This document shows positions 55,564 to 61,240 of a stretch of DNA of 64,000 nucleotides, one piece after another. The stretch spans positions 62,001-126,000 of the forward strand of contig NZ_JAILWC010000002.1 in assembly GCF_025699125.1 (NCBI RefSeq), given 5' to 3'. Under the pieces are notes generated by a model, which was not told the DNA's origin, made no database searches, and was given only the letters and a program-made list of their open reading frames with translations. Within the stretch, counting starts at the first letter, position 1, and each line of letters opens with the position of its first letter. This DNA is from Nitrosopumilus sp. (GTDB lineage: Archaea > Thermoproteota > Nitrososphaeria > Nitrososphaerales > Nitrosopumilaceae). The position numbers were made by a program, and so were the translations under genes.

Positions 55564-56454
55564 TCATAGTATTGTCCTGAGACCCTTACACCTATTCCTT
55601 ATTGTTACTTCAGTAATGCCTGCAGCATCGGCAATGTCTTTTTGAGTTCGGTTTTCTTCCAAATCTATACTTGCAAGATATAACGCAGATGCAGCTAATC
55701 CCATAGGATGTTTCCCAGCAAGAGCGTTTTGTTTTTCTGCTTTTTTTAGAATTTTCATGGCATGTCGTTTTGTTTTTTCTGACAATTCAGCATTACTTGC
55801 AATTTTTGCAATACATGAAACAGAGTCAGCAACGGGTATTTTCAGTTCTAATTCTTTGAAAATTAATCTATAGCTTGCAGTAAGTTCTTTTCTTTTTATT
55901 CCCATTGACGATGCAATTTCTTGCAATGTACGTGGAGTCTCAGATTCACGACATGCAGCATAAAGAGCAGCTGCAATAAGGGCGGCAATAGAACGTCCTC
56001 TGATTAGTTTTTTCTCCAAAGATTTTCTATAGATGTAAGATGCTTTTTCTACAACTGCGTCAGGCAAGGACAGTTTTTCTTTTAATTTTAAAAGCTCTGA
56101 TAATGCTTGTTGAAGATTTCGCTCATCATTATTTTTCATATGACTTCTATTATCCCATTTTCGAAGGCGTTTCAAAGAAGATTTCATTGAAGCAGACAAT
56201 GGATTTCCAGAAGAATCTCTGTCAAAGGGATTGATCATAGTACTTAGACCTCGATCGTGTCGTGCCAAGGTTGTCTTATCACCAGTATGAGATCTGCTTG
56301 TGGTAGAATTTGTAAATATCCTCTCAGATCTACTGTCATTTACTTTTTCATCCAGCACCACACCACAGTTGGAACAGAATACTTCCTGAGAGTCTACATC
56401 TGTAATCACAGTATTTTTTCCACATCTAGGACATTTTGTTTCTTGTAAACTCAT
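55564..56454 (-). CDS. tfb: Transcription initiation factor B (TFB)
   Basis: 296 residues from ATG 56454 (MSLQETKCPRCG); an in-frame ATG at 56478 exists. The zinc ribbon CPRCG...CSNCG is followed by the B-reader/linker (RSERIFTNSTT) and two cyclin-like repeats (ending ITEVTIRNRCKGLRTIL, a helix-turn-helix for BRE binding). It recruits RNA polymerase to TBP-bound promoters. Thaumarchaea carry several TFBs; this one is near several regulators. Confidence 0.96.
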   Translation of the reverse strand: MSLQETKCPRCGKNTVITDVDSQEVFCSNCGVVLDEKVNDSRSERIFTNSTTSRSHTGDKTTLARHDRGLSTMINPFDRDSSGNPLSASMKSSLKRLRKWDNRSHMKNNDERNLQQALSELLKLKEKLSLPDAVVEKASYIYRKSLEKKLIRGRSIAALIAAALYAACRESETPRTLQEIASSMGIKRKELTASYRLIFKELELKIPVADSVSCIAKIASNAELSEKTKRHAMKILKKAEKQNALAGKHPMGLAASALYLASIDLEENRTQKDIADAAGITEVTIRNRCKGLRTIL

Positions 56455-56477
56455 AATAAAATCAAAAATATTTTGCA

Positions 56478-57341
56478 CTAGTGTTCTGCATGTCTCTTCA
56501 GTTTTTCAGACATTGTAATTAAACTGGTTTCAAGTCTTTTAGGGCTTGCAATGTAAAAATCGGCATAAAAATGACCATCATCTTCAAGCCATTTTGTATC
56601 AATTCCCTTGCTATGCAAAAGAGAGATTGTTTTGTGTTTTTCTTCAGAATCTGAGAATCTTCTCTGTCTGATTGGTTTTAGGTCACTTTTTACAAGAGAG
56701 TAGTCATAATGATCGAAGGTGTTCTCAATTTTGTCCATATCAAAAATCCTCAAAACGGAGAACGCAAAGACAGGGTCTTTGTCTAAGAATCCCAAATCAG
56801 ATTCAGATTGCTGTTTTTTAATTAATTCAAAAAGATTTGAGAATGCCTTGTATCCAATATAGCCAATGCAGCCAGTTGCAATTATCATATCAGATCGTGG
56901 GATATCTTTGATGGGTAGATTCCCAGACTCTAAATTGACACATATTCCTTTTTTGCAAAGCCCCATATTTTCAGAGAATTTGAGTGCAGGTTCAGATATA
57001 TCTATTTGATAAAAATCAAGGGTGTCATCATATGAAAGATTTTCAAAAATTTGTTTTGATTGTTCAATTGAAGGCTCTTGTTCTAAAAAGAAATCATCTA
57101 ATTCAGACATTTTCAAATCATATTTCATTAGCGCAGAATTGATTCCATAAGAACTTCCAATATCCATAATGTTAATTTTTTTTGAAAGCTTTTTGTAAAG
57201 TTGTTTTGCAATAGAAAGATACAACGGTTTTGTTTTATCAGGAATGCGATAGTCTAACCTCTTCATTTCTTTGAGATATGCATTTGGAAATTTCTGTGTG
57301 TAAATGTTTGTAAAATCTTTTTTTACTGCCAGCTCTTCCAT
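56478..57341 (-). CDS. Methyltransferase-like protein (SAM-binding, unknown substrate)
   Basis: 287 residues. Motif I is INIMDIGSSYGINSALMKYDL, with later NLESGNLPIKDIPRSDMIIATGCIGYIG that resembles motifs III-IV. The Asp/Glu after motif I is not at the usual distance, so cofactor use is uncertain. The C-terminal third with LLHSKGIDTKWLEDDGHFYADFYIAS is reminiscent of class I MTase substrate domains. It ends 23 nt before the preferred TFB start and may be cotranscribed. Confidence 0.65.
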   Translation of the reverse strand: MEELAVKKDFTNIYTQKFPNAYLKEMKRLDYRIPDKTKPLYLSIAKQLYKKLSKKINIMDIGSSYGINSALMKYDLKMSELDDFFLEQEPSIEQSKQIFENLSYDDTLDFYQIDISEPALKFSENMGLCKKGICVNLESGNLPIKDIPRSDMIIATGCIGYIGYKAFSNLFELIKKQQSESDLGFLDKDPVFAFSVLRIFDMDKIENTFDHYDYSLVKSDLKPIRQRRFSDSEEKHKTISLLHSKGIDTKWLEDDGHFYADFYIASPKRLETSLITMSEKLKRHAEH

Positions 57342-57647
57342 GTTGGCAAAATGTTATCATGCCACCCGTTATAAAACCATCGATGAGATGGTTGGATATT
57401 GTAATAACATCATAAAGTGAATATAAGGAATAATCCATATTTTTGGACATACAGTAATTCTCATGCTCCAACTGAAAACACGAGGAATATGTCCCCCAAC
57501 GAAACAGAACCATAGGATTGAGCTCAGGAAGTTAATTTTTCAATTTTCACAGTACTCATAAATCAACAAAAAATGTGTTGAAAGAATTAGAGTTTTGATT
57601 ATTTTCAATAGACCAATGATTACATTAAAGATGATGTTTTTAAATTA
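57342..57647. other. Intergenic region between the methyltransferase-like and ParB-like genes
   Basis: 306 bp between divergent genes. AT-rich DNA with short frames on both strands (for example plus 57463-57561) but none with a recognisable protein pattern. It presumably contains the promoters of both neighbours. I see no tRNA, inverted repeat over 10 bp, or canonical parS site. Confidence 0.5.
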
Positions 57648-58469
57648 GTGTTGAGGAGATACAAACCTAAAATCTCATATAGATTAAGAGAAATCCCAAT
57701 AAAACAGATCAAAATATGGAAAGAAGCTCAGGCACGAAAGCTTGACAGAGAAAATATTTCAGAACTGGCAAAATCTATCAAAAATGAAGGATTGTTGAAT
57801 CCGCCTTTAGTACAAAAAGAAAACAAAGATACATACTTGTTAATGTCGGGACAGAGGCGACTTGCAGCAATGAAAAGGCTGGGGGCAAAAAAGATTCCAG
57901 TACACTTGCTTAGTAAAAAAACAGAGTATGATCTTGAAAATGCAAAGGCTGCATCGGTAGTTGAAAACATTCATCGAAACGATATGAACCACAGAGAAAT
58001 TGCAGACGCGTGTAAGTTTTTGACTGAACAGGTTGGCAAATCATCAGCTGCAAAATCAATGGGAATGTCACCTGCAACATTAAACAAATATCTTGGGTTT
58101 GCAGGTGTTCCTGAAAGACTGAAATTATTAGTACCTTCACTAGTTTCAAGAGACGAAATTACAAGATTATACTTTATTGTTCCAAATGTAGTAAAAGCTG
58201 AAAAAATAGTTCAAAGAATATCCAGTTTGGATCATACCTTACGGAAAAAATATCTCATCGCATTGTCTCAGACTCCAAAATCATCGCATCAGAAACTTTT
58301 GAAACGTGCAAGATCTCTTCGAGTCAAACAGAATATATCATTGAAGTTATCCAAAACAAATGCCAAAAAACTAGCAATTGAATCAAACAAGAAGGACATA
58401 CAGCCGGATGAATTAGCAGGCAAGATAATATCAGACTATCTAAAACGTAAAAAAAGTAGAACACGATAG
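57648..58469 (+). CDS. ParB-like DNA-binding protein
   Basis: 273 residues from GTG 57648. The N-terminal ParB/KorB nucleotide-binding domain contains LAKSIKNEGLLNPPLV, the GERR-like box GQRRLAAMKRLGA and the ENIHRNDMN box, followed by an HTH (SSAAKSMGMSPATLNKYL). The rest is basic, ending KRKKSRTR. ParB proteins load onto parS sites and slide using CTP; in archaea they are rare and mostly on plasmids. No parA lies beside it. It could be a chromosomal nucleoid factor or a transcription regulator. Confidence 0.85.
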   Translation: MLRRYKPKISYRLREIPIKQIKIWKEAQARKLDRENISELAKSIKNEGLLNPPLVQKENKDTYLLMSGQRRLAAMKRLGAKKIPVHLLSKKTEYDLENAKAASVVENIHRNDMNHREIADACKFLTEQVGKSSAAKSMGMSPATLNKYLGFAGVPERLKLLVPSLVSRDEITRLYFIVPNVVKAEKIVQRISSLDHTLRKKYLIALSQTPKSSHQKLLKRARSLRVKQNISLKLSKTNAKKLAIESNKKDIQPDELAGKIISDYLKRKKSRTR

Positions 58470-58491
58470 AATTTTTTCATCTTAACAGATA

Positions 58492-58593
58492 TTATTTTTC
58501 ATCTAATATGTTTTCTAGGCATCCGACATCACAATATTTTTCAAATCCGATAAACTCTTTGTTACATATTACACATTTTTTTACTAGTCTCAT
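58492..58593 (-). CDS. 33-residue Cys4 zinc protein
   Basis: ATG at 58593, stop at 58492-58494. The four Cys at residues 7, 10, 21 and 25 (C-x2-C...C-x3-C) suggest a treble-clef zinc knuckle. Rest is charged. It is immediately downstream and convergent to the ParB-like gene. Translation is not proven. Confidence 0.5.
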   Translation of the reverse strand: MRLVKKCVICNKEFIGFEKYCDVGCLENILDEK

Positions 58594-58626
58594 ACCATAA
58601 TATGTCATTTCTAGAATAAAAAATGA

Positions 58627-58785
58627 TCAATACATGTAATCTATATAATCTGAATTTTGTAGATTCTTTTTGTATTCAATTATTGCCTGATTGATGTTTT
58701 CTAATTCTTTTTTATTCATGTGATTTAACATATGATTGATTTTCAGACCAAATTTCTCAATGTTTTTAATAATTTCATCAGTCAA
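58627..58785 (-). CDS. Possible 52-residue helical protein
   Basis: TTG at 58785 to TGA at 58627-58629. It is a strongly charged alpha-helical peptide (MTDEIIKNIEKFGLKINHM, later KKELENINQAIIEYKK) with no Cys. A TATA-like cttaaa (plus 58812-58818) lies about 30 nt upstream. Coding is plausible but uncertain. Confidence 0.4.
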   Translation of the reverse strand: MTDEIIKNIEKFGLKINHMLNHMNKKELENINQAIIEYKKNLQNSDYIDYMY

Positions 58786-58918
58786 CTAAAAAATGTCCAA
58801 AAAAGAAACCCATTTAAGATTTATTGTATAACGCGATCATCGGATTTTTTTATTATAGTATTTCCAAATGTTTCAATTTTATCATAACAGAGTTAGTTAA
58901 TTGGTTAGGGTATACTGT

Positions 58919-59077
58919 TCATGGATCTAAATGCGAGACTATCCAGTCTTTTATTGCCATATCTGTTCTATGTTCCTGACATCTCACATACGGACATGGG
59001 ATCAGTCTAGGACATTCTACTTCTTCACATTTTCTATACAAGCCAAGAATGTTAGTGCCTTTAGGAGAAATAGACAT
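58919..59077 (-). CDS. 52-residue Cys4-His protein, third gene of a micro-operon
   Basis: ATG at 59077, stop at 58919-58921. Cysteines at 17, 22, 28, 33 and His 36 are arranged C-x4-C-x5-C-x4-C-x2-H (within RKCEEVECPRLIPCPYVRC), followed by an amphipathic helix DMAIKDWIVSHLDP. The start overlaps the stop of the preceding gene by one base (TGATG), a sign of coupled translation. The opposite-strand frame is a shadow. I do not recognise a family. Confidence 0.6.
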   Translation of the reverse strand: MSISPKGTNILGLYRKCEEVECPRLIPCPYVRCQEHRTDMAIKDWIVSHLDP

Positions 59078-59208
59078 CAGAGCACAGGTTTCCTGACTGT
59101 TTTAATTACATTGTTTTTTATATGATTTTTTTCATGTTGACGAACCTCGTCAAATGTGTATGAGGTTCCAATCCAATGAAAATCACATTTAGGGCATTTG
59201 TATTTCAT
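59077..59208 (-). CDS. 43-residue C2H2 zinc-finger protein, second gene of the micro-operon
   Basis: ATG at 59208. Zinc ligands are C5-x2-C8 and H25-x3-H29 (C-x2-C-x16-H-x3-H), followed by a basic tail (IKNNVIKTVRKPVL). Starts directly after the TAG of the preceding gene and overlaps the next. Nucleic-acid or protein binding is inferred from the finger. Confidence 0.65.
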   Translation of the reverse strand: MKYKCPKCDFHWIGTSYTFDEVRQHEKNHIKNNVIKTVRKPVL

Positions 59209-59325
59209 CTATTTTTCTGCATCCTCTGATTTCTTTTTTTCAGATGCAGTGAGTGTATTTACGTCAGTTGTGGCGGTGGTTTTACAAGAACCAAATTTCA
59301 GTTTTTCAATTATTTTTTTAAACAT
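59209..59325 (-). CDS. 38-residue charged protein, first gene of the micro-operon
   Basis: ATG at 59325 and stop TAG at 59209-59211, abutting the ATG of the next gene. The peptide starts with a basic amphipathic helix (MFKKIIEKLKFG), has one Cys, a Thr-rich middle (CKTTATTDVNTLTAS) and a Lys/Glu end. A TATA-like box at 59346-59354 is placed 25 nt upstream. Resembles short membrane-interface peptides, but this is a guess. Confidence 0.55.
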   Translation of the reverse strand: MFKKIIEKLKFGSCKTTATTDVNTLTASEKKKSEDAEK

Positions 59326-59345
59326 ACTCTATCAAGTTGCCCTGT

Positions 59346-59354
59346 GATATATAC
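59346..59354 (-). promoter_or_regulatory. TATA box of the micro-operon
   Basis: gatatatac on the plus strand (gtatatatc on minus) centres 25 nt upstream of ATG 59325, fitting an archaeal promoter with little or no leader. It directly adjoins the partial HTH-gene copy at 59354-59426. Confidence 0.5.
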
Positions 59355-59426
59355 TGACGTAAACTGAACATTGACTGTAACTTTGTTGTTAAGATCAATA
59401 TTCACATTACCAAACAATGATTGGTA
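59354..59426 (-). pseudogene. Partial copy of the 3' part of the HTH gene at 61385-62020
   Basis: The 73 bp match 61432-61504 with 68 identities and no gaps, same strand. Translated on the minus strand it gives Y-x-SLF-x-NVNID-x-NNKVTVNVQFT, the same segment as in the full gene, then diverges into stops on both sides. It is a remnant of a duplicated paralogue or a transferred fragment, now lying just before the micro-operon promoter. Confidence 0.8.
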
Positions 59427-59692
59427 GTTACTAGTACCAATGGGCAATGATTCTGATTAGTTCTCAATAGTAAATCAGATATCAGAATACAAAATATAAG
59501 AGATTATTCAAACAACTAATACTAAATTTCATCATACCAAATTAGATATTCATAATTTTCAAAAGAACAGAGTCAAATAGTTTTAATTTTTGAAATATTG
59601 TGAAAACTCCAATACTATCATTTAACAGCAATCAGAAATCCAAGCTAACTTGGAAAATAACGCAAGTCATTTAAAAGTTGAATATAAAAAAA

Positions 59693-60466
59693 TTAGTTGC
59701 TTCCGATAAGAAACACAACTTGAATAGATGTTGTGATGTCTTGCTCGGAAGAAAACACCGGAGTTGAGGACATAATCTTTGATTCAGCCATTGCAAAATC
59801 TCCACTAAACACTGGTTGTGGGTATGGCATTCCAAATTCTGAAAGGGAAATGCTCTTTACTCCAATTACAGTGTGGTCAAGTGGAGCTAATGCTTTTTTT
59901 GCCTTTGATTCTGCATTTGTTATTGCTTGTTCTAATAGATCATCTTTGAGGTCCATTTGTTTTTGTGGAGATAGAGAATAATACACAGAATCAACTCTGT
60001 TTACTCCTGCATCCACACCATTGTCTATGATGGATGCTGCAAGATTGAGTTTTTCTGTTTCTACGGAGAGAATGTTTGACACCTTGTATCCCACAAGTTC
60101 TCTTGTCTGAATTCCCAAAAACTCATCATTGATATATTCATAGACAGGGTAGATATTCAAAGAAGATGTACTAATTTCTGACTCTGTAATTCCAACAGAT
60201 TTTAGTGCTGAAATTACATTCTCCATCATCTTGGAATTTTCCTCTAGTGCTTGTTTTGCAGTAGGTTTCTGAATTTCTATGCCAAAAGTGACATTCAGAA
60301 GATCAGGATCTACTGATGCTGTTGCCATGCCTGTAACTGATATGGTCTTTTCCAATGAGAGAATTGATGCCGGTTGTGCACTTGCCTCAGGATACAATGC
60401 TCCAAAAGAAATAGACACTGCAAGTACTGCAAGCATAGCAATAACTAGCTGTTTTGATTTCTTCAT
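59693..60466 (-). CDS. SIMPL-domain (DUF541) secreted protein
   Basis: 257 residues. A signal peptide at 1-30 (KKSKQLVIAMLAVLAVSISFG, cleavage after an ASA motif) precedes a SIMPL domain: ISVTGMATASVDPDLLNVTFGIE, SALKSVGITESEISTSSLNIYPVYEY, and late AKKALAPLDHTVIGVKSISL. Family members are oligomeric periplasmic or exported proteins of uncertain function, related to bacterial BP26. Divergent from the membrane HTH gene. Confidence 0.9.
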   Translation of the reverse strand: MKKSKQLVIAMLAVLAVSISFGALYPEASAQPASILSLEKTISVTGMATASVDPDLLNVTFGIEIQKPTAKQALEENSKMMENVISALKSVGITESEISTSSLNIYPVYEYINDEFLGIQTRELVGYKVSNILSVETEKLNLAASIIDNGVDAGVNRVDSVYYSLSPQKQMDLKDDLLEQAITNAESKAKKALAPLDHTVIGVKSISLSEFGMPYPQPVFSGDFAMAESKIMSSTPVFSSEQDITTSIQVVFLIGSN

Positions 60467-60559
60467 GACTTTAGGTAATGATATTTTGAAAATAAGGTTT
60501 GATTAAATTTCAATTTAACCAGAAATCTTAATAACACAAGTTAGAAGAACAATGGTTCA

Positions 60560-61240
60560 ATGAATTCAGATGATATTCCAGATTTATCGGACAGGGTAGA
60601 TATTTTATCTACTGAAGATGAAAAACTAAAAACAATTGGAGAAATACTGTCATCTGATTCGAGTAGGAATATTCTCAAGATTTTGTTTAATGAATCACTT
60701 ACTGCAAACCAAATAGCACAAAGAACAGAAATGTCTTTACCACTGGTAATACACCATTTAAAAAAAATGCAATCAGCTCAAGTGGTAAAGATTACAAATG
60801 TTGGTAAAAACTCAAAATCACATGACATGAAATATTACACAATTGACAAATTTGCAATTGTAATTCTTCCTACTGCCATGACCCAATCTGCAAAGAAAAG
60901 TAAATCACTGTTTAATTCCTTTACAAGAATTCATAGACTCGCAACGCTTGGGGGAGTCTCAATTGCAGCATGGTTTTCATCACAATTTCTTCAAAATCAG
61001 ACTAGCATTCCAGCAGTACAATCCAAGGCATCATCTAAGATATCTGAATCATCAGAGTCTATGATGATGCGTTCAATCCCTGAACAGTCAGAAAATATAC
61101 AAGACACATTACCATTAAGCTCATCTGATCCGCAAATTGGGGTTTTATTGTCTGTAGTTGTAGTTCTTTCAGTCGTAGTTTCAGGATTGATAATTGAATT
61201 AATAATCAAACAAAAATTAAACGCTGCAAAGTGCAACTAG
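60560..61240 (+). CDS. Membrane-anchored winged-helix (ArsR-like) regulator
   Basis: 226 residues. The N-terminal ArsR-like domain (about 25-105) has SSDSSRNILKILFNESLTANQIAQRTEMSLPLVIHHLKKMQSAQVV. After a linker comes a hydrophobic patch (about 130-145), a Ser-rich low-complexity stretch, and a C-terminal membrane helix (IGVLLSVVVVLSVVVSGLIIEL). The layout suggests a transcription regulator that senses an envelope signal. Divergent from the SIMPL gene, which it may control. Confidence 0.8.
   Translation: MNSDDIPDLSDRVDILSTEDEKLKTIGEILSSDSSRNILKILFNESLTANQIAQRTEMSLPLVIHHLKKMQSAQVVKITNVGKNSKSHDMKYYTIDKFAIVILPTAMTQSAKKSKSLFNSFTRIHRLATLGGVSIAAWFSSQFLQNQTSIPAVQSKASSKISESSESMMMRSIPEQSENIQDTLPLSSSDPQIGVLLSVVVVLSVVVSGLIIELIIKQKLNAAKCN

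Follow-up and report, generated by a model that had tools for sequence, protein, structure and literature searches.

Small zinc-finger proteins of marine ammonia-oxidising archaea: a previously undescribed family of multi-copy operons

Ammonia-oxidising archaea rank with the most abundant microbes of the ocean. In a 64,000-nt stretch of Nitrosopumilus DNA, hereafter the window, three very small open reading frames lie packed end to end on the minus strand, which raises the question of whether they are genes and, if so, what kind of unit they form. The original prediction regarded them as a tight operon of undescribed proteins, two of them with zinc-binding patterns, that might constitute a regulatory, toxin-antitoxin-like or defence module. 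Comparison with related genomes indicates that the window holds one copy of a multi-copy operon family of small zinc-finger proteins, previously undescribed, in marine ammonia-oxidising archaea. The predicted features of this copy are as follows.

59346-59360, minus strand: core promoter of gene A, ACGTCAGTATATATC
59325-59209, minus strand: gene A, 38 aa, starting with MFKKIIEKLKFGSCKT..., first gene of the operon
59208-59077, minus strand: gene B, 43 aa, a single Cys2-His2 zinc finger with a long loop
59077-58919, minus strand: gene C, 52 aa, Cys4-His pattern, the variable third gene

Three overlapping genes and their conservation

The stop codon of A abuts the start codon of B (TAG followed directly by ATG), while B and C overlap by 1 nt, their stop and start sharing one base (TGATG). 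This arrangement had been considered hard to obtain by chance, and the comparison agrees: the exact A-B-C order is repeated in locus L193 (genome G149), down to the abutting start and the 1-nt overlap, and frames, order and overlaps recur in other genomes. The conserved frames are the predicted ones, all on the minus strand, and not merely coding on the opposite strand. C is rarer than B: it scored strongly in 17 of the 250 family genomes, mostly at loci from Nitrosopumilus, and every one of these 17 genomes also carries B. The dN/dS of C ranged from 0.05 to 0.20 in the ten closest pairs whose divergence could be used (median of 0.16 over 18 pairs), which shows this predicted gene to be under strong purifying selection. 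At the level of sequence comparison, these results confirm that A, B and C are real genes forming one operon copy.

The zinc-ligand patterns noticed in the second and third proteins held as well. In B (C-X2-C-X16-H-X3-H) the ligands C5, C8, H25 and H29 are invariant across 29 distinct sequences, and in C (C-X4-C-X5-C-X4-C-X2-H) the ligands C17, C22, C28, C33 and H36 are invariant across 9 sequences. A single-protein query matched B in 28 of 61 relatives; a profile of 29 B sequences matched 88 of 250 family genomes, which are spread over 6 of 22 genera and carry as many as 7 copies each, and among 300 genomes sampled across the whole order every match fell within the same family. The gene lies nearly always directly downstream of an A gene. 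The structure model of B presents a beta-beta-alpha arrangement (strands at residues 2-4 and 11-13, helix at 20-38; pLDDT 74), and Foldseek placed UBZ-type and C2H2 fingers among its nearest folds, all of them with E values of at least 2. The model of C was uninformative (pLDDT 53). A search of PDB sequences with the B and C profiles gave no significant match.

Searches of Pfam, NCBIfam, PHROGs and PADLOC returned no fitting family for A, B or C, in keeping with the proposal that the unit is undescribed; PADLOC gave only a 14-bit partial match for B and none for A or C, and searches of the open-access literature found no description of these genes in Nitrosopumilus. The operons add several conserved families of small proteins for which these libraries gave no matching model.

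A dedicated promoter and the leading gene

The TATA-like box that had been placed about 25 nt before the first ATG could be confirmed: the TATATATC box, inside ACGTCAGTATATATC, is located 20 nt ahead of the first ATG, that of A, with its 5′ end 28 nt upstream and its centre at ~25 nt. The distance between promoter and ATG is nearly constant among copies, at ~18-22 nt, a spacing to be expected if the transcripts are leaderless. As the last base of the promoter in the window is located 20 nt before the start codon of A, the mRNA probably has no leader or hardly any. Just upstream of the promoter, on the plus strand (59383-59447), there is a sub-threshold match to the C/D-box RNA family RF01160 (25.9 bits for a gathering threshold of 45, E = 0.019), which is probably due to chance.

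The common promoter of A genes, ATTACGCCGGTATATATC, is almost exclusive to them, as judged from genus-wide pattern searches and a scripted scan of the fetched loci. The strict motif ACGYCRGTATATATC has 8 exact matches in 61 genomes, each of them preceding an A-type gene. When the pattern AATTACGCCGGTATATATC was searched with up to three mismatches in 40 genomes of the genus, 27 of the 34 matches were found at A genes, short or diverged ones included, and 7 elsewhere; four of these seven were inspected directly and are located within or next to unrelated genes. The reversed pattern, used as control, gave 4 matches. In the profile scan of the fetched regions, the strongest sites outside recognised A genes corresponded mostly to diverged or short A genes and to a gene whose product starts MENKENNPT. 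This small, charged, divergently transcribed gene (MENKENNPT...KKEEPKKEE...) is located upstream of A in L055, L050, L196, L224 and L193, and a similar element, GTATATAT, precedes its start by ~19 nt.

An inverted upstream arm, AGGCRYRA, occurs at offsets 17-19 in 16 of 37 promoters of the A-I subfamily described below, compared with a maximum of one at any offset in 2000 shuffles; the promoter copy in the window is without this arm. The idea that the helix of B dictates the type of promoter was rejected, given that one promoter precedes B genes with different helices. For the same reason, B need not regulate the promoter.

Gene A was detected in 18 of 61 genomes with one query sequence, all within the genus except for one weak match, and nearly every A found was immediately followed by B. 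Among 26 distinct aligned sequences the N-terminal part is the best conserved; it corresponds to a cationic amphipathic stretch (MFKKIIxKLKF), consistent with the basic amphipathic element originally read in the first protein, and the tail of the protein is charged. Two subfamilies can be distinguished, A-I (MFKKI..., with promoter ATTACGCCGGTATATATC) and A-II (MLKNIFARLKGKQEKT..., with a promoter containing TCTGTCTTTATAAGC). Members of A-II (L061, L195, L196, L203, L204, L210, L214-L217, L224 and L226) are often followed by B and the small gene Z42, and often adjoin two other small genes, Z34 and Z50.

Two loci, L113 (G004:C150) and L118 (G028:C73), carry an A of only 13-14 codons (MFKKFIQKLEGNF and MFKKLIQRLGCMSQ) with B directly after it and the dedicated promoter intact. 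In addition, A shows less synonymous divergence than its neighbours B and C when the same pairs of loci are compared (0.28, 0.49 and 0.63 for A, B and C between the window and L193; 0.22, 0.58 and 0.65 between the window and L222). Since so short an A still leads into B, and synonymous divergence in A is low, A may act chiefly through its first codons. Carried further, this would make A mainly a leader cistron, whose leaderless start and initial codons recruit the ribosome and provide translational coupling to B, the peptide itself having little function and B and C doing the work. The conservation of the N-terminal part fits this possibility, which we nevertheless find doubtful: most copies, and the A-II subfamily too, retain the C-terminal half of A (DVNAFKESEKK), and an AT-rich codon bias may account for the low synonymous divergence.

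The cationic amphipathic N-terminus of A, together with its coupling to B at almost every locus, would also suit a toxin-antitoxin-like pair, where A would be a small membrane-active peptide, B a zinc-finger neutraliser or repressor, and the third genes passengers. The multiple copies of the unit, its patchy occurrence and its loss from a sister strain (see below) point in the same direction. However, the persistence of B next to an A cut down to 13-14 residues would be unusual for a folded toxin, none of the three proteins matched a known toxin or antitoxin family in the library searches, and neither the strong purifying selection on C nor the presence of a TFB gene within some operons is expected of a plain toxin-antitoxin pair. 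We therefore regard this explanation as unlikely.

Exchangeable third genes, natural loss and TFB neighbours

The genes that follow A and B differ widely among the loci compared. L222 (G169) reads A-B′-Z33-B-C and L194 (G163) A-B′-B-C, with 1- and 4-nt overlaps; L050, L220 and L221 read A-B-Z33-C; and L052, L203 and L225 carry A-B-Z55-TFB-C on one strand, with an additional B in L203. Besides C, the third gene can be Z33 (MLTCNKCYN...), Z42, Z55 or a second B, and other small Cys-rich genes are abundant around these operons. This range of third genes shows A-B, a pair kept together at dozens of loci, to be the constant two-gene core, and C to be one of several exchangeable small zinc-type third genes, a point that goes beyond the original prediction.

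A natural deletion was found in the sister genome G200, whose locus L188 (G200:C1) matches positions 57431-60600 of the window with flanking DNA 93-97% identical. In that genome 494 bp are absent (59054-59547 of the window), so that the promoter, A, B and the beginning of C are gone, and small indels break the frame of the leftover C, a decay that could be explained by promoter loss alone. This deletion, together with the broken C, indicates that the A-B-C unit is dispensable. The operon set as a whole appears to be accessory, with duplications, rearrangements and losses that distinguish closely related strains. Downstream of C on the minus strand, the window contains two further frames, one of 52 aa, charged and with a TTG start (58627-58785), and one of 38 aa with CxxC and CxxxC motifs (58492-58608); both are 89-96% identical to G200 and have no clear match in the other fetched loci. 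The operon is also adjoined, on the plus strand (57648-58469), by a gene for a stand-alone ParB-like protein (ParB_N domain, TIGR00180), a 60% identical copy of which lies near another A-B locus, L224.

Patchiness, multiple copies and absence from a sister genome might also be expected if the operon spread as mobile or viral cargo, as a selfish or counter-host gene set, and archaeal viruses do encode small C2H2 proteins (PMC3541406). Yet no relative of C was found in 2.9 million viral contigs, and the promoter had there a single match, inside a large unrelated open frame; C and the promoter were the only queries in these scans and stand as a proxy for A and B. Within the window there is no tRNA gene near the operon, whose neighbours showed no integrase. 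We consider this explanation highly improbable. The proposal of a defence module found no support, with no credible PADLOC match, no effector-like domain and no virus-borne copies found.

The genomes counted contain about 5-12 genes for the transcription factor TFB, each recognised by two TFIIB-repeat matches. In 17 near-complete genomes, a TFB gene lies within 1 kb of 10 of 41 A-B loci, where 0.74 would be expected (P = 2.5e-9, a value without correction for phylogeny that treats the loci as independent, which they are not); the 41 loci leave out a few weak B matches. In a TFB tree, the adjacent TFBs fall in at least three separate supported clades, while no sampled copy of the widely shared, short-branch clades is adjacent to A-B. 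The neighbours occur in convergent, co-directional and divergent arrangements, and six loci (in G016, G018, G188, G200, G151 and G036) carry A-B-Z55-TFB on the same strand, followed by C in three of the six. In the window, the nearest TFB gene (55564-56478, same strand) lies 2.4 kb off, beyond the opposite-strand ParB-like gene, so that for this copy the TFB link is statistical, not local, and the local link is weak. This TFB is a divergent paralog that overlaps by 1 base an upstream gene for a 287-aa protein with a methyltransferase-like motif, IMDIGSSYGINSALM (the pair spans 55564-57341, minus strand), and the pair recurs in G013 (L253). The A-B loci and TFB genes might both reside in variable islands, which could account for their adjacency.

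Residence in such islands would be the reason for the clustering if these were zinc micro-proteins of stress adaptation like those of Haloferax, acting post-transcriptionally or through protein-protein contacts with no special TFB link. The Haloferax counterparts are important for adaptation to stress, for the formation of biofilms and for swarming (PMC6562870), the surroundings of the operons are rich in small Cys-rich genes, and the UBZ-type and C2H2 folds nearest to B, although not significant, would suit such a role. A TFB adjacency far above chance, which involves several TFB clades and arrangements, and a promoter specific to the A-B operon family argue against it, and we hold it to be possible but doubtful.

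The A-B-C unit is probably a small regulatory module. More specifically, the explanation that we favour, tentatively and with somewhat less than even confidence, is that it represents one copy of a set of multi-copy, very small regulatory operons that may act with accessory TFB paralogs. A leaderless mRNA would be transcribed from the ATTACGCC-GG-TATATATC promoter, whose element just upstream of the TATA box, along with the inverted AGGCRYRA arm in many copies, would serve as the recognition site of a particular TFB or of a dimeric regulator. A would be an amphipathic leader or anchor peptide, its N-terminus mattering most, whereas B and C, stabilised by zinc, would be adaptors or DNA-binding proteins that join accessory TFB paralogs in acting on the initiation of transcription, the outcome being the tuning of a condition-specific programme. 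We infer zinc binding, leaderless transcription and the action of B and C at initiation with accessory TFBs from the sequence. Among the roles originally proposed, the regulatory one is thus the best supported, by the promoter, the zinc fingers and the TFB linkage; toxin-antitoxin systems are resembled in anatomy only, and defence finds no support.

A more far-reaching version of the regulatory explanation, possible if speculative, would see in this self-contained micro-protein operon with its own core promoter a specificity set for alternative TFBs, whose exchangeable zinc-protein third genes lead to different outputs. To our knowledge, little is known about what determines the choice of target genes by each TFB, and family-specific micro-proteins that have their own promoter and are statistically tied to accessory TFBs offer a concrete, testable entry to this question. 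In a study of biofilms of ammonia-oxidising archaea, N. maritimus is reported to have eight TFBs and to switch its dominant TFB in biofilm (PMC12448741), which makes TFB-linked accessory proteins of interest.

Comparison with known systems

The operons share with type II toxin-antitoxin systems two tiny abutting or overlapping genes, multiple copies and dispensability, and differ from them in the lack of a family match, the variable third gene and the zinc-finger nature of the second gene. Like the expanded TFB paralogs of ammonia-oxidising archaea, the A-B operons constitute a lineage-specific expansion; the operon in the window encodes no TFB, while other copies carry or neighbour one.

B resembles classical zf-C2H2 proteins in its two Cys and two His conserved ligands. 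However, it fails the classical spacing C-X2-4-C-X12-H-X3-5-H, with X16 between the second Cys and the first His, and remains below the curated cut-offs (11-12 bits with the best Pfam C2H2 profiles, for cut-offs of 27-40). A second relative in kind is AFV1p06, also a small single-finger archaeal protein with a zinc-finger fold, which binds DNA and whose family had no homologue in Thaumarchaeota in the 2013 study (PMC3541406). B differs from this family in its X16 spacing and in being chromosomal and multi-copy, and the comparison yielded no PHROGs match of weight and no match among PDB sequences.

The zinc micro-proteins of Haloferax volcanii are proteins of fewer than 70 aa with zinc-ligand patterns, many paralogs and accessory roles (PMC6562870, PMC11241148, PMC10716476), and are defined there by two C(P)XCG motifs (PMC11241148). 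The proteins of the operon share with them a tiny size, many paralogs and an accessory role, as well as, in B and C, zinc-ligand patterns. A, B and C are without the two C(P)XCG motifs, CxxCG being absent from B and C and the single CPKC of B having no G after it, and, unlike the Haloferax set, they are organised in operons with a dedicated promoter.
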